Assembly: GCA_017475265.1 (NCBI GenBank) | Contig: JAFVFY010000030.1 | Location: 37,367 to 101,366 of the forward strand | DNA length: 64,000 nucleotides | Reading direction: 5' to 3' | Source: Prevotella sp. | GTDB taxonomy: Bacteria; Bacteroidota; Bacteroidia; Bacteroidales; Bacteroidaceae | Made by a program: the position numbers and the translations under genes | In this document: piece after piece, positions 24,737 through 51,372 of the stretch | Numbering within the stretch: position 1 is the first letter of the stretch | Layout of the letters: every line of letters starts with the position of its first letter | The notes under the pieces: model-generated | The model's input: only the letters and a program-made list of their open reading frames with translations | Told to the model about the DNA's origin: nothing | Databases searched by the model: none

Positions 24737-27043
24737 TTAGAAGAGGCTCTGCTCGCCGTCATCGATGTGGGTGACGCGGTCGTTCAGCTCGGCCAGCTTG
24801 CCACTGTTCCAGCGGTCGGTGGTACCAACAAGGTAGCCGGTGATGCGCTGTAGCCGGTCGATGTCGTGGCTGTGGCAGCGGGGGCACTCCTTGAGGTCGG
24901 GCTGAGCGTTCTCGTAGCCACAGGCCATGCAGCGGTTGCGGTTGTGGTTGATGCTTCCGTAACCCATGTTCAGGCGATCCATCATGTCGACAACACCCAT
25001 GATGACCTGGGGGTTGTGCGTGGCATCGCCATCTACCTCAACGTAGAAGATGTGACCGCCACGCGTCAGATCATGGTAGGGAGCCTCCACCTCGGCCTTG
25101 TGGCGTGCGGAGCACTTGTAGTAGACCGGCACGTGGTTGGAGTTCGTGTAGTAGTCGCGGTCGCAGATGCCCTTCAGTGGGCCGAATTTTTCGCGGTCGC
25201 GCTTGGTGAAACGTCCGGCCAGACCTTCGGCGGGCGTGGCGAGCACGGAGTAGTTGTGGTGGTAACGCTCGCAGAACTCGTTGATGCGGTCGCGCATGTA
25301 GGTGACGATGCGCAGTCCCAGCTCCTGTGCCTCCTCACTCTCGCCGTGATGCTTACCGATGAGGGCCACGAGGCACTCGGCCAAGCCGATGAAGCCAATG
25401 CCGAGCGTGCCCTGATTGATGACGCTGTCCACCTTGTCGTTGGGAGCCAGCTTGTCGCCGCCTATCCAGAGGCTCTTCATCAGCAGGGGGAACTGCTTGG
25501 CCAGGGCTGACTTCTGGAACTGGAAACGGTCATCGAGCTGCTTGGCGGCAATCTCGAGCATACGGTCGAGCTTGGCGAAGAACAGGGCGATGCGCTGCTC
25601 TTTCACTTCCTTACTCAGTGGGTAATTGTCACGCTGGGATGCGTGACCTACTATACTGCTGTCACGCTGGGAAGCGTGACCTACTTCCAACATGCACTCG
25701 ATGGCGAGCTTCACAATATTAATAGTGGTGAACGAGACGTTTCCGCGCCCAATGGAGGTCTTGGGTCCGAAGCGGTTCTCGAAGACACGGGTGCGGCAGC
25801 CCATCGTGGCCACCTCGTGGAGGTAGCGCTTGGGGTCGTCGGGACGCCACTCGTCGGTTTGGTTAAAGGTGGCATCAAGATTAAGGAAATTGGGGAAGAA
25901 CCGGCGGGCCGTCACCTTACAGGCCAACTGGTAAAGGTCGAAGTTACGGTCTTCGGGCAGGTAGTTCACGCCGCGCTTCTTTTTCCATATCTGTATGGGG
26001 AAGATGGCAGTCTCGCCGCCGCCCACGCCCTCGTAAGTGGAGAGCAGGATTTCGCGCATCACGCAGCGTCCTTCGGCCGAAGTGTCTGTACCATAATTAA
26101 TAGAGGAGAACACCACCTGGTTGCCGCCTCGTGAGTGGATGGTGTTCATGTTGTGGATGAAAGCCTCCATGGCCTGGTGCACACGGCCCACGGTCTTGTT
26201 GATGGCATGCTGGCGCACGCGGTCGACGCCCATCAGACAGTCGAGGGGCTGCTTTATATAGTCCATCAGCGGCTCGTCGTAGAGCTTTGAGTAGTCCTCG
26301 CCGTTCAGGTCTTCAAGATATTTCAGCTCCTCCTGATAGGTCATGCGCACGAAGGGTGCGAGGTAGAAGTCGAAGGCCGGGATGGCCTGTCCACCGTGCA
26401 TCTCGTTCTGGGCGCACTCCAGGCTGATGCAGGCCAGCACGCTTGCCGTCTCAATACGTTTGGCAGGGCGCGAGGCACCATGTCCGGCGATGAAGCCGCA
26501 GTTCAGGATATTGTCCAGCGGGTGCTGCACGCAGGTGAAGCTCTTCGTGGGGTAGTAGTCTTTGTCGTGGATGTGCAGGTAGTTGTCCTTCACCGCGTCT
26601 TTCACATCCGGCGAGAGCAGATAGTCATCGACGAAAGGCTTCGTAGTCTCCGAAGCGAACTTCATCATCATGCCGGCGGGTGTGTCGGCGTTCATGTTGG
26701 CATTCTCGCGGGTAACGTCGTTTTTCTCCACGTTGACGATGTCGAGGAAGATGTCGCGGGTCTTGGCCTTGCGGGCGATGGAGCGCTGGTTGCGATAGGC
26801 GATGTATTTCTGGGCTACGTCCTTACGGCTGGACTTCATCAGTTCCATCTCTACCATGTCCTGGATGGCTTCGACATCCATCTGCGCCTTGCCGCGCTGA
26901 GCCACGTGGTCGGTAATCAGGCTGATGAGTCTTTCGTCTTCGCCCTTGTCAGTTGCCATCATGGCCTTGCGGATAGCGGCCATGATCTTCTGTTCGTTGA
27001 AGCCGACAATGCGCCCGTCGCGTTTTATAACGGTTTGTATCAT
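24737..27043 (-). CDS. nrdD: Anaerobic ribonucleoside-triphosphate reductase (class III)
   Basis: The protein reduces ribonucleoside triphosphates to deoxyribonucleotides under anaerobiosis by glycyl-radical chemistry. An N-terminal ATP-cone (1-95: VIKRDGRIVGFNEQKIMAAI) gives allosteric control. The catalytic barrel follows, with SLECAQNEMHGGQAIPAFDF and the ATMGCRTRVFENRFG loop. Near the end are the zinc-site cysteines C705, C708, C720 and C723 and the radical glycine G736 in RITGYLVG. Between the conserved NIVKLAIECMLE and KEVKEQRIALFF segments lie two tandem copies of VGHASQRD, encoded by a hairpin repeat (25628-25684); this stretch is not part of the usual family sequence. No nrdG activase gene is adjacent on either side, which is unusual for this family. 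Confidence 0.95.
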   Translation of the reverse strand: MIQTVIKRDGRIVGFNEQKIMAAIRKAMMATDKGEDERLISLITDHVAQRGKAQMDVEAIQDMVEMELMKSSRKDVAQKYIAYRNQRSIARKAKTRDIFLDIVNVEKNDVTRENANMNADTPAGMMMKFASETTKPFVDDYLLSPDVKDAVKDNYLHIHDKDYYPTKSFTCVQHPLDNILNCGFIAGHGASRPAKRIETASVLACISLECAQNEMHGGQAIPAFDFYLAPFVRMTYQEELKYLEDLNGEDYSKLYDEPLMDYIKQPLDCLMGVDRVRQHAINKTVGRVHQAMEAFIHNMNTIHSRGGNQVVFSSINYGTDTSAEGRCVMREILLSTYEGVGGGETAIFPIQIWKKKRGVNYLPEDRNFDLYQLACKVTARRFFPNFLNLDATFNQTDEWRPDDPKRYLHEVATMGCRTRVFENRFGPKTSIGRGNVSFTTINIVKLAIECMLEVGHASQRDSSIVGHASQRDNYPLSKEVKEQRIALFFAKLDRMLEIAAKQLDDRFQFQKSALAKQFPLLMKSLWIGGDKLAPNDKVDSVINQGTLGIGFIGLAECLVALIGKHHGESEEAQELGLRIVTYMRDRINEFCERYHHNYSVLATPAEGLAGRFTKRDREKFGPLKGICDRDYYTNSNHVPVYYKCSARHKAEVEAPYHDLTRGGHIFYVEVDGDATHNPQVIMGVVDMMDRLNMGYGSINHNRNRCMACGYENAQPDLKECPRCHSHDIDRLQRITGYLVGTTDRWNSGKLAELNDRVTHIDDGEQSLF
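25628..25684. repeat. Two hairpin repeats inside nrdD (ACGCT stem family)
   Basis: The better copy (25661-25680) folds as GTCACGCT-GGGA-AGCGTGAC, a perfect 8-bp stem with a 4-nt loop, followed by CTAC. The first copy (25628-25647) is identical except for one T-T mismatch at the top of the stem. The pair adds about 22 codons in frame. A related pair lies at 38216-38287. Confidence 0.85.
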
Positions 27044-34301: not shown

Positions 34302-36885
34302 GGACAGACTATTTATTGGTATCTACCGCTACTTCCATCGGCACCGGCTGCAATGCTGGCTGTCGATGGTTGCGCTTTTTGCGTTCTTCGGCTATTTCGC
34401 CTTTCAACTCCACCTGGAGGAGGACATCAACAAGCTCATGCCGTCGTCGCGCAATGAGGACGGCACCACGAAGCTTGCCTTCGCCGACCTGCGCATCAAG
34501 GACAAGACCTTCCTGCTCTTCGAGCTTAAGGACACTGGTGTTACTACGGAGCAGATGGCCGAGACCTGCGATGCCTTCGTGGAGGCATTGGTTGCTGACT
34601 CATTGGCAGATATCTTCTACTGCCTCCCCGATGAACTGCTGCCCGATGCCATCGCCTACTTACAGGAGCACCTTCCCGCCTACATCGACACCTCGGCCTA
34701 CTCCGCCTTCGACACCCTGCTCACCACAGAACACCTAAAGCGCCAGATGGAGCAGAATCGCGAGGACCTAGAGGGCGAGTTTGGTAGTATGTTCCCTGAA
34801 CTCATCCAGAGTGACCCGCTGGGTCTCCGCAACGTCCTGGTCGAGCAGATGTCTGCCATCCTTGGGAGCGCGGACGTCCCGTCCGCAAATGATGGCGGGC
34901 GGGATGACCGCGCTCCCGGCTACACGACCATCGACGGTCATTTCTTCGTCCGCGACTCGTCGGTCTGTGTGGCGTTCATCACCCCGCAATTTTCCGCTAC
35001 GAACACCGGCCAAGGCTCTGCACTCTTTGCCCGCATGAACGAGCTGATAGACAGCTTCGCCACCGTCGCGCCCGACATCAACATCTGCTACCACGGTACG
35101 CCCGCCAGCGGCTACTATAACTCCACCGTCATCAAGCACGACCTCACCACGACCATCGCTGGTTCCTTGGTGCTGGTGCTCATCTTTATCATGGTGTGCT
35201 TCCGCCGTTGGGACACGCTGCCGTTGCTGCTGCTGCCCGTTGCCTTTGGCACGCTCTTCGCCATGGCGGTGATGTACTTCCTGCGCGGACAGTTCTCCCT
35301 GCTTGCCCTCGGCATCGGCGGCGTGGTGCTCGGCGTGGCTCTGAGCTACGTGCTCCACGTGCTCACCCACCGCTACTACGTCAAGGACGGCGAGCAGCTG
35401 TTGCGCGAACAAACGAAGCCCCTGCTCCTCGGCTGCATCACCACCATCGGCTCCTTCGGTGGACTCTTCTTCACCAACACCGACCTGTTGCAGGACTTCG
35501 GCCTCTTTGCCGCCCTGGCCATTGCTGCCACCACGCTGTTTAGCCTCATCTACCTGCCACAGCTCCTTTTCCATTCCACTGCGCAGCCTAATAATCCAAT
35601 AGTAAATAGTCCAATAGTAAATAAAGTCAACGCCTACCCCTTCGACCGCAAGCCGTGGCTTATCGCCGCCGTGGTGGCCGTCGTCGTGGTGTGTGTAGGT
35701 GTCTGGCTGTGGAAGGGCACGCTCTTCGATGCCGACATGCACAACCTCGGCTATGATGATCCGCGTGTGGAACACTCCGAACAGCTGCTGCGCTCGAAGA
35801 CCTACACCGGCGACAAAGAGAAATACTTCGCCGCGCAAGGCAAGACCATGGAGGAGGCTCTCCATAACTTCGGCCTGCTGCGGCAGAAACTCGATTCGCT
35901 TTCAGAGCTAGGCTTGGTAAAGGACTACACGCCCACCGACCGCATCTTCATTCCTCTTGACGTACAACAGCGTAACATTGATGCCTGGTATGCCTACTGG
36001 GCCAGCCCCATGCCCGCCCTCGGCGGTTCTCCCGCCGAGACCCGCCTCTCCCTTGCCCGTCGCCTCATCGCCGCGACGGCTCCGCAGGCCGGCCTCCTTC
36101 CCGATGCCTTCGAGCCTTTCTTCGACCTAGCCGCCGTGCCCGATGCGTCAGCTTCGGATCCAGACCCCCTCTACGAGGCTGGCCTCATCCCCGAGGGTTA
36201 CCTGACTACCCTCATGGAACAGACTTACGGCGGTGACTACCTCTGCTTCACCTCCGTGCGTTGTGAGAACGACTCCGTACGCTCGTCAGACAGCGACTAC
36301 CGACGCATCTGCGATTCCGTCTGCAAGGAGCCGAACCTCATGGTGCTTGACACCTATTACTACACCACCGACACGCTGCTGAAGCTGAACACGGACTTCA
36401 ACATCCTGCAGTGGCTGTCCATGGCCTTCGTCTTCCTGGTGCTGCTTGTCAGCTTCCGCTTTAACGTCAGACACACTTTGCTGGGCTTTGCACCCATCCT
36501 TATCAGCTGGCTTATGGTGCTCGGCATGATGGCACTCTTCGATATGAAGTTCAACCTTATCAACATTATCATCTCCACCTTCATCTTCGGTATCGGCGTT
36601 GATTACAGCATCTTTATCATGCACGGTTTGATTGGTGTAGAGGCAGGCTCCGTGCCATCCCGTCATGAGGATAAAAGGCTGATAATGGCCCACAAGAGTG
36701 CCATCTTCTTCAGCGTCGTAGTCCTCGTGGTCACCGTCGGCTCGATGCTTCTGGCTGTTCATCCCGCCATCCGCTCCGTAGGTTTCGCCACCATCGTGGG
36801 ACTGCTCTCAGCCGTCATCCTCTGCTATGTCCTGCAACCCGCCGTCTATCGAACTTTTGTTTTAGGAAAACAGGGAAAAACATGA
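34300..36885 (+). CDS. MMPL/RND-family exporter of the polyene-type locus (861 aa)
   Basis: The protein has two halves, each with an N-terminal helix, a large periplasmic domain and a five-helix bundle: TTIAGSLVLVLIFIMVCF, then LLPVAFGTLFAMAVMYFL in half one, and LSMAFVFLVLLVSF to STFIFGIGVDYSIFIMHGLI in half two. The GxGxDYS motif is typical of MMPL transporters. Homologous exporters occur in aryl-polyene clusters, where they are thought to move the lipid product or its intermediate across the inner membrane. No ATG is available: the frame opens at TTG (34300), exactly where a repeat ends. Two more repeats lie in frame: SADVPSANDGGRDDRAPG (34863-34920) and NNPIVNSPIVNK (35591-35619). Confidence 0.88.
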   Translation: MDRLFIGIYRYFHRHRLQCWLSMVALFAFFGYFAFQLHLEEDINKLMPSSRNEDGTTKLAFADLRIKDKTFLLFELKDTGVTTEQMAETCDAFVEALVADSLADIFYCLPDELLPDAIAYLQEHLPAYIDTSAYSAFDTLLTTEHLKRQMEQNREDLEGEFGSMFPELIQSDPLGLRNVLVEQMSAILGSADVPSANDGGRDDRAPGYTTIDGHFFVRDSSVCVAFITPQFSATNTGQGSALFARMNELIDSFATVAPDINICYHGTPASGYYNSTVIKHDLTTTIAGSLVLVLIFIMVCFRRWDTLPLLLLPVAFGTLFAMAVMYFLRGQFSLLALGIGGVVLGVALSYVLHVLTHRYYVKDGEQLLREQTKPLLLGCITTIGSFGGLFFTNTDLLQDFGLFAALAIAATTLFSLIYLPQLLFHSTAQPNNPIVNSPIVNKVNAYPFDRKPWLIAAVVAVVVVCVGVWLWKGTLFDADMHNLGYDDPRVEHSEQLLRSKTYTGDKEKYFAAQGKTMEEALHNFGLLRQKLDSLSELGLVKDYTPTDRIFIPLDVQQRNIDAWYAYWASPMPALGGSPAETRLSLARRLIAATAPQAGLLPDAFEPFFDLAAVPDASASDPDPLYEAGLIPEGYLTTLMEQTYGGDYLCFTSVRCENDSVRSSDSDYRRICDSVCKEPNLMVLDTYYYTTDTLLKLNTDFNILQWLSMAFVFLVLLVSFRFNVRHTLLGFAPILISWLMVLGMMALFDMKFNLINIIISTFIFGIGVDYSIFIMHGLIGVEAGSVPSRHEDKRLIMAHKSAIFFSVVVLVVTVGSMLLAVHPAIRSVGFATIVGLLSAVILCYVLQPAVYRTFVLGKQGKT
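34863..34920. repeat. GC-rich palindromic repeat in the MMPL gene (GGGAGCGCGG family)
   Basis: GGGAGCGCGG near the left end pairs with CCGCGCTCCC at the right end, and GCGGACG-TCC-CGTCCGC forms an inner hairpin. It encodes GSADVPSANDGGRDDRAPG in the first periplasmic domain. Related to the pair at 38005-38058. Confidence 0.8.
35591..35619. repeat. 7-nt word repeat in the MMPL gene
   Basis: ATAATCC, AATAGTA, AATAGTC, CAATAGTA: about four words, encoding NNPIVNSPIVN in the loop between the first helix bundle and the second half. On the other strand the word is CTATTGG, as at 53523-53529. Confidence 0.6.
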
Positions 36886-36958: not shown

Positions 36959-38491
36959 ATGAAGTCCGACGTAATCATCATTGGCAGTGGCCTCGGTGGC
37001 CTCATCTGCGCCAAGCTATTGGCGGAGAAAGGCAAGCGTGTCACGGTATTGGAACGTCACAGCGTTCCAGGCGGCTGCCTCCAGAGCTACCGTCGGCACG
37101 GCGTCAGCTTCGACACTGGCCTGCACTACGTCGGCGGACTGGCCGAGGGTTCCCGGCTTCACGGCATCTTCGAGCGTCTGGGCCTCATGCGCCTCCCCTG
37201 GCAGCGCCTCGACCCCGACGGCTTCGACCTCGTCACCATCGGCGGCGAGACCTTCCCCTTCGTGGAGGGCTACCAGAACTTCGCCGACGCCCTCGCCGAC
37301 CGCTTCCCCCATGAACGCGCCGCCCTGCAAAAATACGTCGACCTGATGGAGCGTGCCGACCGCCTCCCCCTCGGCGACCCCGAAGTGCAGATGCTCTGCT
37401 CCGTCAACGCTTACGACTACCTCCACGAACTCTTCCACGACGAGCAGCTCATCAATGTCCTCTCCGGCAACGCCCTCAAATATGAGCTGCGCCGCGAGTC
37501 CCTTCCACTCTTCAACTTCCTCCATGCCACCTCCAGCTTCATCGGCGGCGGAGCCTGGCGGCTGCAAGGCTGTGGCGACGACATCGTGCGTCTGTTCGTC
37601 AGCGACATTGAGTCCATGGGCGGACAGGTCATCACCAATGCCCAAGTGGACGAACTCATCGAGACCGACGGCCTCATCACGGCCGCCCGCTGCACCAACA
37701 GCGAGATCTACGAGGCCGACCTGTTCATTAGCGACATCCACCCCCAGCAGACCTTCGCCCTCGTGAAGGAAAGCACGAAGCTCTCGCGTCTCTTTCGCCG
37801 TCGCATCGACATGCTCGAGAACACCTGCGGCATGTTTACCGTCTCGCTCGTCACCGACGGCAATATCCCCTATTTCAACCACAACAAGTACATCTACCGC
37901 GAGGCCAACCTCTGGGAGCCGCCCGTAACAGGCATGCTTGGCTCGGCAGAGAGTACCCCCGGGCATCACAATGGCGTAGACCGCGTGATGGTGAGCTGCA
38001 TGGCTGGGAGCGCGGACGTCTCGTCCGCTCTGGGAGCGCAGACGTCCCCGTCCGCCTCAGCCCACGTCATAGACCTGCTCACCCCCGTTCCCCTCTCATT
38101 GTTTGAGAAATGGGCCGATAGCCACGTTGGCCACCGCCCTGAGGGCTACAAGCAGCTGAAGGAGCATATTGCCGATGATTGCATTGCTTTGGCTGCAAGT
38201 GTGATGCCAGAATTACAACGCTCGGAGGCGTTGCCTACTATTTCGGAGAGGGCGCAACGCTCGGAAGCGTTGCCTACTAAGTACAGCAGCTCCCCACTCA
38301 CCTGGCGCGACTACACCCTCACACCCTTAGGCTCAGCCTTTGGCCTCCGTAAGGATAGCCGCCAGCCCCTGCTCACCATCCTCTCGCCCCGCACTCCCAT
38401 CCCCAACCTCTTACTCACTGGTCAGAATCTCATGCTCCACGGCCTAGAGGGGGTCACCATGACCGCCTTACAGACCTGCAAGGCCTGCTGA
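36959..38491 (+). CDS. FAD-dependent phytoene-desaturase-like oxidoreductase
   Basis: An N-terminal Rossmann motif (DVIIIGSGLGGLICAKLLAE, followed by VTVLERHSVPGGCLQSY) binds FAD. The remaining pattern (GVSFDTGLHYVGG; RLQGCGDDIVRLFVSDIESM; LLLTGQNLMLHGLEGVTMTA near the end) is that of the CrtI/phytoene desaturase-like amine-oxidoreductase family. It is the last intact gene of the ketosynthase operon, where related oxidoreductases may act on the polyene chain or its head group; the substrate is inferred. Two stretches look inserted: MAGSADVSSALGAQTSPSAS (near residues 348-367) and two LQRSEALPT-type copies (near 418-440). Downstream the operon ends abruptly in gene debris. Confidence 0.85.
   Translation: MKSDVIIIGSGLGGLICAKLLAEKGKRVTVLERHSVPGGCLQSYRRHGVSFDTGLHYVGGLAEGSRLHGIFERLGLMRLPWQRLDPDGFDLVTIGGETFPFVEGYQNFADALADRFPHERAALQKYVDLMERADRLPLGDPEVQMLCSVNAYDYLHELFHDEQLINVLSGNALKYELRRESLPLFNFLHATSSFIGGGAWRLQGCGDDIVRLFVSDIESMGGQVITNAQVDELIETDGLITAARCTNSEIYEADLFISDIHPQQTFALVKESTKLSRLFRRRIDMLENTCGMFTVSLVTDGNIPYFNHNKYIYREANLWEPPVTGMLGSAESTPGHHNGVDRVMVSCMAGSADVSSALGAQTSPSASAHVIDLLTPVPLSLFEKWADSHVGHRPEGYKQLKEHIADDCIALAASVMPELQRSEALPTISERAQRSEALPTKYSSSPLTWRDYTLTPLGSAFGLRKDSRQPLLTILSPRTPIPNLLLTGQNLMLHGLEGVTMTALQTCKAC
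38005..38058. repeat. Two GGGAGCGCGGACG repeats in the oxidoreductase gene
   Basis: Tandem copies at 38005-38030 and 38031-38058, each TGGGAGCGCRGACGTC followed by CCGTCCGC-like sequence able to form a GCGGACG/CGTCCGC hairpin. They encode GSADVSSALGAQTSPSAS. Confidence 0.8.
38216..38287. repeat. Two hairpin repeats in the oxidoreductase gene (ACGCT stem family)
   Basis: Copies at 38216-38233 and 38265-38282 fold as CAACGCT-CGGA-AGCGTTG and are each followed by CCTAC. They are the same family as the nrdD pair (25628-25684), with two stem base pairs exchanged in a compensatory way. Confidence 0.85.
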
Positions 38492-38572: not shown

Positions 38573-38584
38573 GCTGCTCCTGTG

Positions 38585-39009
38585 GCATCCTCTGTGGCAC
38601 AGGTGGCGGCTTCGATGACGTTGCCATACGCAGTAAGGGCGTAGAAGATGTAGCAGTAGACGACGATGCCCATGCAAAGCAGCACGGTATATGGAGTGAT
38701 TTGTGTTGGGAAGACGGCGGTAACGATGATGCTGCCGATGCCGAAAAGCACGATAAGATGGCCGGAAACCATAAACGAGTGGTGTCCGCTGAGCACCGTG
38801 CGCTTTGCCTCGGGTGTCCACCACCTGGGTGCTCCGCCATCGGCGGGCATCCGCATGATGTTGCACCGCACGGTAAAATAGGTATGGTAGAAGGTATAGG
38901 CGATGAAGGTGGCGTGGAGGAAGAAGATTGAGAATTGAGGGTTGAGAGTTGAGCGTTGAGGGTTGAGCGTTGAAGATTGGGCTAACGCCACCGTCCAGTA
39001 GGCAATGAG
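38585..39009 (-). pseudogene. Partial copy of the 293-aa membrane protein gene
   Basis: This 425-bp stretch is colinear, without gaps, with 50606-51030 and codes for about residues 115-256 of that protein (IAYWTVALAQ to NVIEAATCATED) with few substitutions. It lacks the first three membrane segments and joins giant-gene debris on one side and unique sequence on the other. An ATG at 39039 could start a short chimeric frame, but function is unlikely. Confidence 0.85.
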
Positions 39010-50513: not shown

Positions 50514-51372
50514 CTTGCTTTTTATTATTTATGGTTTGACTTTCGTTAACTCTATATGTTGTTGGGGTGAGAGTTGAAGATTGAAAATCGAAAAATGCTT
50601 TGGTGACATCCTCTGTGGCACAAGTGGCGGCTTCGATGACGTTGCCATACTCGGTGAGGGCATAAAAGATGTAGCAGTAAACAATGATGCCCATGCAAAG
50701 CAGCACGGTATATGGAGTGATTTGTGTTGGGAAGACGGCGGTGACAATGATGCTGCCGATGCCGAAAAGCACGATAAGATGGCCGGAAACCATAAACGAG
50801 TGGTGTCCGCTGAGCACCGTGCGCTTTGCCTCGGGTGTCCACCAACTGGGTGCCCCGTCATTGGCGGGCATCCGCATGATGTTGCGCCGCACGGTAAAAT
50901 AGGTATGGTAGAAGGTATAGGCAATGAAGGTGGCGTGGAGGAAGAAGATTGAGAATTGAGGGTTGAGAGTTGAGCGTTGAGGGTTGAGCGTTGAAGATTG
51001 GGCTAACGCCACCGTCCAGTAGGCAATGAGACCCACCGCTAATATGAGAAGGTCGCGCACGATGACTTTCTTGGACAGGTAGTCAGGGCGCAGTAGCGAG
51101 GTGTGGCTCCATCCTAAGAGCACACCGCCGATGTGGAAGTAGCTGACAGAGAGTGCCGAGGCTGCTGCCGGACACGACGTGCGCCACTCGAAATGGTCGT
51201 GGAGGAAGAACCCGATAGCGAAGATAACGTAGCAGAGGGCTACCAACTGGCGGGCACGACGATAGACATCATAGTTGCGGAACCACACATTATTGTATAA
51301 CAATACGAAAGCTATCAGGAGATTCACACCCCCTGCAAACAATAGCACCGTGTGGTAGAGTTGATGTTCCAA
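50491..51372 (-). CDS. Orphan multi-pass membrane protein (293 aa)
   Basis: Six or seven hydrophobic segments are visible: HTVLLFAGGVNLLIAFVLLY, LVALCYVIFAIGFFL, LLILAVGLIAYWTVALA, FFLHATFIAYTFYHTYF, GHLIVLFGIGSIIVTAV and YTVLLCMGIIVYCYIFYAL. The pattern resembles the membrane halves of the AraC regulators at 20287 and 51726, but no DNA-binding domain follows; the chain ends in a polar tail. A partner or decoy sensor for the divergent AraC protein is a reasonable inference. The loop SSTLNPQRSTLNPQFS is encoded by 7-nt words (50946-51001). A partial copy lies at 38585-39009. It overlaps the next gene by 23 bp. Confidence 0.7.
   Translation of the reverse strand: MEHQLYHTVLLFAGGVNLLIAFVLLYNNVWFRNYDVYRRARQLVALCYVIFAIGFFLHDHFEWRTSCPAAASALSVSYFHIGGVLLGWSHTSLLRPDYLSKKVIVRDLLILAVGLIAYWTVALAQSSTLNPQRSTLNPQFSIFFLHATFIAYTFYHTYFTVRRNIMRMPANDGAPSWWTPEAKRTVLSGHHSFMVSGHLIVLFGIGSIIVTAVFPTQITPYTVLLCMGIIVYCYIFYALTEYGNVIEAATCATEDVTKAFFDFQSSTLTPTTYRVNESQTINNKKQDETKNKD
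50946..51001. repeat. 7-nt word array (GGGTTGA) in the membrane-protein gene
   Basis: Eight heptamers: AGATTGA, GAATTGA, GGGTTGA, GAGTTGA, GCGTTGA, GGGTTGA, GCGTTGA, AGATTGG. An identical array is preserved in the partial copy at 38925-38980. Confidence 0.85.

Follow-up and report, generated by a model that had tools for sequence, protein, structure and literature searches.

REPs are named and modelled as extragenic elements, and insertions into genes are expected to be purged. Di Nocera et al. (2013, PMC3733652) describe 24 families in the superfamily of GTAG-tagged REPs; these are mostly intergenic, and several species have copies inside genes, O. terrae more than any other. The sole mention of Bacteroidetes that we found in that survey concerns CGTC repeats, under which RPE-4 and RPE-6 are listed. 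Among TnpA-REP proteins, subclass 2.4 is described as abundant in Bacteroidetes and Cyanobacteria, with REPs in frame inside the tnpA gene (PMC6006769). These REPs are the nearest Bacteroidota case in the open-access literature searched (subscription papers being mostly outside this scope), in which we found no family such as the one described here in Prevotella. Intragenic GTAG REPs are already known; a Bacteroidota family that is undepleted in genes and has a strong frame bias looks new.

The Prevotella family shares with the GTAG-tagged REPs, as far as the description in PMC3733652 goes, the unpaired GTAG foot, the stem size (mostly 6 to 9 bp), short loops, complementary stem changes between subfamilies, inverted dimers with GTAG outside and the location of some copies within ORFs. 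However, those families are mostly intergenic, whereas this one does not avoid genes and is dominated by one frame, and head-to-tail dimers, absent or under-represented in that survey, make up 26 of its 55 neighbour pairs. With the REPs of subclass 2.4 (PMC6006769) it has in common a GT[AG]G foot, in-frame insertion and a host in the Bacteroidetes, but those repeats are described at the transposase gene, whereas here unrelated metabolic genes hold the copies, and we found no tnpA that carries the family or is flanked by it. The inverted pair as apparent unit is a likeness to the Pseudomonas REPINs (PMC3116915; also PMC6006769). The preliminary description of this DNA had drawn a parallel with the palindromic elements of Rickettsia, which is apt, as these are also palindromic and in frame in unrelated metabolic genes, possibly in tolerant loops (PMC10969869). 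The anatomy is nearer to the GTAG-tagged REPs: the Rickettsia elements are described as ca. 150 bp long with a conserved peptide, in contrast to a unit of 27 nt, GTAG-tagged and read in several frames (a comparison by description only). The difference from these known cases is one of degree, i.e., genes are not avoided, one frame is dominant and central enzymes are included.

The window, that is, the whole stretch of DNA analysed (64,000 nt, G000:C40:37367-101366), belongs to a Prevotella-like MAG of 4.75 Mb (G000; 135 contigs, 99.11% complete), placed by its best NrdD relatives, which are, among those listed, Prevotella MAGs, many from ruminants. The nrdD gene (24737..27043, minus strand) codes for an anaerobic ribonucleoside-triphosphate reductase of 768 aa (NF005497 at 1005 bits versus an NCBIfam cut-off of 764 bits; PF13597) and contains two REP units of the GTC type, sense to the gene, arranged head to tail and read as VGHASQRD. 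One is located at 25627..25653 (minus strand; pattern match 25628-25651; covariance-model match of 42.7 bits at G000:C40:62993-63019) and has a mismatched loop-closing pair; the other is at 25660..25686 (minus strand; pattern match 25661-25684; 43.8 bits at G000:C40:63026-63052). The gene of a FAD-dependent amine-oxidase/CrtI-like oxidoreductase (36959..38491, plus strand; 510 aa; PF13450 and PF01593 above cut-off) has two units of the GCA type, antisense and read as QRSEALPT, at 38214..38240 (minus strand; pattern match 38215-38238; 38.4 bits at G000:C40:75580-75606) and 38253..38279 (minus strand; pattern match 38254-38277; 43.6 bits at G000:C40:75619-75645). A 22-base pattern with up to 3 mismatches has 4 matches in the window versus a mean of 0.14 in shuffles (none of 100 reaches 4), and a stricter pattern has 2 versus 0.00. 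The proposal that the copies in both genes, two in each, form one family is thus borne out beyond chance by shuffling, and the two genes do read the element in opposite orientations with their ORFs (768 and 510 aa) open. Their stems differ in the second pair (T-A versus C-G) and the third (C-G versus A-T), as had been noticed, while the outermost G-C is constant.

The consensus of 83 distinct first-pass units, from this genome and a sister one (G072), is TA-GTAG-NNNACGCT-TCCN-AGCGTNNN-A, 27 nt with a foot (TAGTAG or TAGTGG), an 8-bp stem and a TCCN loop. The successive letters of GTAG are found in 82, 83, 79 (with G in 4) and 82 of these units, and a GTGG foot is commoner among weaker matches. 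The defining trait of GTAG-type REPs, an unpaired 5' foot GTAG (or degenerate GTRG), is present, and so are their complementary stem changes between subfamilies. The inner stem, ACGCT/AGCGT, is nearly fixed, and the outer three pairs vary and covary in at least ten combinations (GTC, GCC, CCC, GCA, GGC, GTA, GAC, CTC, CGC and CCG types). In 42 distinct units, 96.7% of the stem cells are paired, those changed on both sides number 44 versus 12.4 in shuffles (0 of 500 reaching this value), and the covariation score is 0.373 versus at most 0.061 with slid partners; these cells are sequences rather than events, and the independent changes are fewer. Two other measures were not above shuffles (double-change pairs, 3 versus 3.0; further pair types, 8 versus 6.7). 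The DNA hairpins of three subfamilies fold at -9.1 to -9.9 kcal/mol (z from -4.2 to -6.1).

The genome-wide search with a covariance model that the preliminary description had suggested recovered (E ≤ 0.1) at least 147 units at 85 sites among the 150 candidates scored, a lower bound in which the weakest matches may be chance. The sites (41 single, 30 double and 14 larger) display the dispersed, high-copy singles and dimers typical of GTAG-type REPs, and a reversed control pattern had no matches. The strict pattern gave 92 matches in G000 and 8 in G072 and was absent from the remaining 198 of the 200 genomes sampled in the genus; among 393 sampled genomes of the order, G000 alone had the family. 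It looks to have expanded recently in one lineage. A cobalamin gene cluster (L207-L208, G000:C103:73204-86868) accumulates 8 sites and 19 units within 14 kb.

Units stand alone, follow one another head to tail, or form inverted pairs whose GTAG feet lie outside. Among the 55 neighbour pairs of the first census (65 sites), 29 were inverted with GTAG outside, 26 were head to tail and none was inverted with GTAG inside. Head-to-tail gaps were a multiple of three in 25 of 26 cases, the exception being a cluster in contig C45 that lacks a spanning ORF. An element with a built-in length of 3n was rejected: the gaps of inverted pairs leave a remainder of 1 in 17 cases, 2 in 7 and 0 in 5, and whole spans are likewise mixed. 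Since gaps and spans fall in all residue classes, the frame would be kept by selection or by trimming at the junctions.

We examined 65 stretches of the genome, 46 around the 92 strict matches and 19 around other model matches, with an automated test that required the frame to be open across the site and codon use on both flanks to resemble that of coding DNA. By this test, 69 of the 85 sites are intragenic, and so are 1320 of 1700 random points (78%) with a 3-nt span in the same stretches. The test errs both ways: it fails sites in C5, at C67:40500 and at C103:117731 that are within long open ORFs, and it passes C20:107119, which was doubtful on earlier inspection. The 16 failing sites include several plainly between genes. 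The family, therefore, does not avoid genes and occupies them about as often as expected by chance; the mostly extragenic state, typical though not strictly defining of GTAG-type REPs, does not apply here. Only 2 of the 6 sites in the stretches of G072 that were examined look intragenic, which makes the genic excess a trait of G000. A Pfam family was found for 41 of the 47 host ORFs scanned (first census, leaving out the ORFs of the 19 later stretches). The hosts include nrdD, purA (adenylosuccinate synthetase), gpmI (phosphoglycerate mutase), gltB (glutamate synthase), ETF-alpha, several cobalamin enzymes, glycoside hydrolases, a SNF2 helicase and a sensor kinase. By reasoning, purging of frameshifts should leave fewer genic sites than observed and would not, on its own, account for the high genic share; targeting of genes and loss of intergenic copies are two possible options.

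The 123 units at the 69 intragenic sites are read mainly in sense phase 1, as VV(G/A)(H/N)ASQR (69 units), followed by antisense phase 2, as TLGSVxYY (27), antisense phase 1 (12), sense phase 2 (8) and antisense phase 0 (7); sense phase 0 reads TAG TAG and was excluded by construction. Among single insertions, 20 of 30 use sense phase 1 versus 6.2 expected if open frames were equal (P = 2e-8), and 22 of 30 are in sense orientation versus 10.7 expected (P = 2e-5). Of 30 inverted pairs, 29 have their first unit in sense phase 1, and the last unit uses all three antisense frames (19, 6 and 5). In our reading, this pattern reflects selection acting on translated inserts together with tandem duplication, and not an element length that is built in. 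Two other leads were discarded: the missing loop base T (which would make TAG) in the 69 favoured-frame units is no evidence, as open frames alone were counted, and hydropathy, by simple arithmetic, failed to order the frames as observed. Translational bypass, with ribosomes skipping the hairpin, would free the frame but is unlikely, since the frame runs open across the element at 69 of 85 sites; at the 16 failing sites, judged by ORF layout rather than homology, we saw no gene that was plainly split.

Comparison with relatives indicates that these segments are insertions. The nrdD segment is present in none of the 79 relatives aligned at the site, among 80 listed (L070 was excluded because it aligned in the wrong frame). 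Together with the family-wide covariation, this sustains the in-frame insertion and the compensatory stem changes of the preliminary description; neither of the two outcomes that it named as refuting was seen, the aligned NrdD relatives being without the segment and further copies existing in the genome. It had put the segment at 22 codons; the net gain is 25 residues over most relatives (768 versus 743) and 19 over L062. This part of NrdD is a linker whose length varies between relatives (L062 has LEVSGEGKEVKEQRI, and L094 a longer stretch of unrelated sequence), and the alignment to a solved NrdD (8p23) breaks between residues 455 and 459 of 8p23, where the insert falls. An AlphaFold2 model of NrdD (41 sequences) was poor (mean pLDDT 59.2, pTM 0.55); its residues 457-474, predicted with low confidence between two helices, are consistent with a loop but carry little weight. 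At the oxidoreductase site, none of the 11 rows aligned there has the units (10 of 21 rows were left out, another ORF having been picked). In the best alignments with solved homologues, the residues gained at the element are 6 in PurA, 3 in GpmI and 1 in ETF-alpha, and the net gain at C103:76220 is 4. As the gain is often below the 10 residues of one unit, native loop residues would have been replaced or trimmed and not simply interrupted.

In G072 we could compare the oxidoreductase site and five of the eight cobalamin-cluster sites (C103:85035, 86028 and 86756 were left out, having no match in the G072 loci), and the family was at none of these six places. Three of them hold other repeats instead: YKSYESYKSYKSYESH (YKSYESYKSY-type), a SLNPQPSTLN-type one and a GGCACGGGGCCTGCCCCTAC segment (GGGGCAGGCC-type). 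In one cobalamin gene, both genomes have units but not at the same places, and where one genome has a unit the other has none. In the G072 copy, a unit (QRSEALPT) adjoins a GGGAGCGC-type repeat and native residues are replaced; the same loop is native in G000. One locus common to both genomes, C72 in G000 (two units) and C47 in G072 (three units), aligns at 94% across the site. The CbiC-type protein of G072 (L266 8464-10035, G072:C25) has a SLTPNPSPKGEG segment, a further in-frame repeat type, adjoining the place of a G000 unit.

We searched G000 for a mobiliser. Y1-type genes are present in contigs C20, C29 and C37 and weaker TnpA-REP-like genes in C85 and C117, with no convincing family unit in the flanks read of any of them. 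A TnpA-REP gene carrying or flanked by the family, as in a RAYT-mobilised REP (REPtron), was not found in this genome. The Y1 gene of C29 begins at a contig end and, in a MAG that is 99.11% complete in 135 contigs, the transposase partner may be unassembled. The C20 protein is the sole TnpA-REP above cut-off; it has homologues in 12 of the 199 other genomes sampled in the genus, none of them repeat-bearing, and no match (E ≤ 1e-10) in the repeat-bearing G072, and a different hairpin lies in the flanks of its gene. For want of co-occurrence across the genus sample, the link of the family to the C20 gene is not supported. Membership in the REPs rests on anatomy, and we infer the RAYT link. The weak TnpA-REP matches in C85 (L332) and C117 (L334) are frames of 435 and 393 aa, the former containing a long GGTTDKGG repeat tract. 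Another TnpA-REP-like protein, in G072 (L331 1366-2043, G072:C112), has an in-frame repeat, ATRRGEADATRRGE, after the HUH motif, as described for subclass 2.4.

We give a probability of roughly 0.7 to the family being a non-autonomous mobile hairpin of the REP/REPIN type, with a mode of spread that we can only propose. A HUH/Y1 transposase of the TnpA-REP kind would recognise the GTAG foot and the hairpin as single-stranded DNA and would insert units, singly or as inverted pairs, at many locations. Genic copies would survive only under three conditions together: a net change divisible by three, an element that keeps the frame open, and a peptide placed in a loop that tolerates it. Tandem duplication of a unit and its spacer, in steps of three, would then give rise to the head-to-tail copies. 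A tentative extension, which we consider possible but doubt somewhat, is that the hairpin is tuned to genic life: its favoured frame gives a short benign loop, VV(G/A)HASQR, and hence it could spread through coding DNA. The dominance of that frame in unrelated proteins (69 of 123 units) could also mean that the peptide itself is what is copied and selected, for example as a tag or flexible linker, with the DNA similarity being secondary. Such a protein-level module is improbable, however, since the same DNA is read in four other frames in 54 of the 123 units (peptides TLGSVxYY, QRSEALPT, RWEAWPT, HAGKRxLL and SRPRFPAW), the stem covaries across subfamilies and alters the encoded residues, and 16 of the 85 sites do not pass as intragenic, several being clearly intergenic.

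Signals for DNA uptake or recombination (DUS or Chi-like) occur within coding sequence and favour particular reading frames, and uptake signals are fixed short words. About 150 copies with at least ten outer-stem combinations do not fit such words, and the sites are insertions relative to homologues; a signal of this kind enriched in genes is hardly credible. An unlikely course, though with more in its favour, is spread by repair or template switching that puts the hairpin into breaks at permissive loops, which would also collect other repeats and need no dedicated transposase. The other repetitive sequences in G072 at three sites filled in G000, the loop filled only in G072 in which a family unit adjoins a GGGAGCGC-type repeat with native residues replaced, and the failure to find a cognate transposase all agree with it. 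Random repair, however, is not expected to keep the ends of the unit, and the family agrees with the known TnpA-REP substrate, as described in PMC3733652 and PMC6006769, in its conserved unpaired GTAG foot, its intact hairpin and its inverted pairs. Transposition of a REP-type hairpin remains our preferred reading.

A lineage-limited family found in genes at chance level and with one preferred frame allows testing how mobile DNA escapes purging, offers a natural set of loop insertions in enzymes such as NrdD, PurA and GpmI, and represents a route for selfish DNA to add peptide to proteins. If the hairpin were indeed tuned to coding DNA, it would naturally produce in-frame loop insertions and tandem expansions by whole codons, central enzymes included.

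The window holds other repeats. A second palindromic family (GGGAGCGCGGACGTC...GTCCGC) is in frame at 38006-38055, in the oxidoreductase gene, and at 34864-34887, in a neighbouring ORF of 861 aa, and, with at most 1 substitution allowed, has 18 matches within 450 kb of G000; a diverged version is found at the same place of the oxidoreductase in G072, and another in a cobalamin gene of that genome. After each copy of a 300-nt direct repeat (38575-38874 and 50596-50895, 93% identical, 12 kb apart) comes a tandem repeat with a 14-nt step. Between 55372 and 61087, a 75-nt segment occurs seven times and may represent a repeated coding domain.
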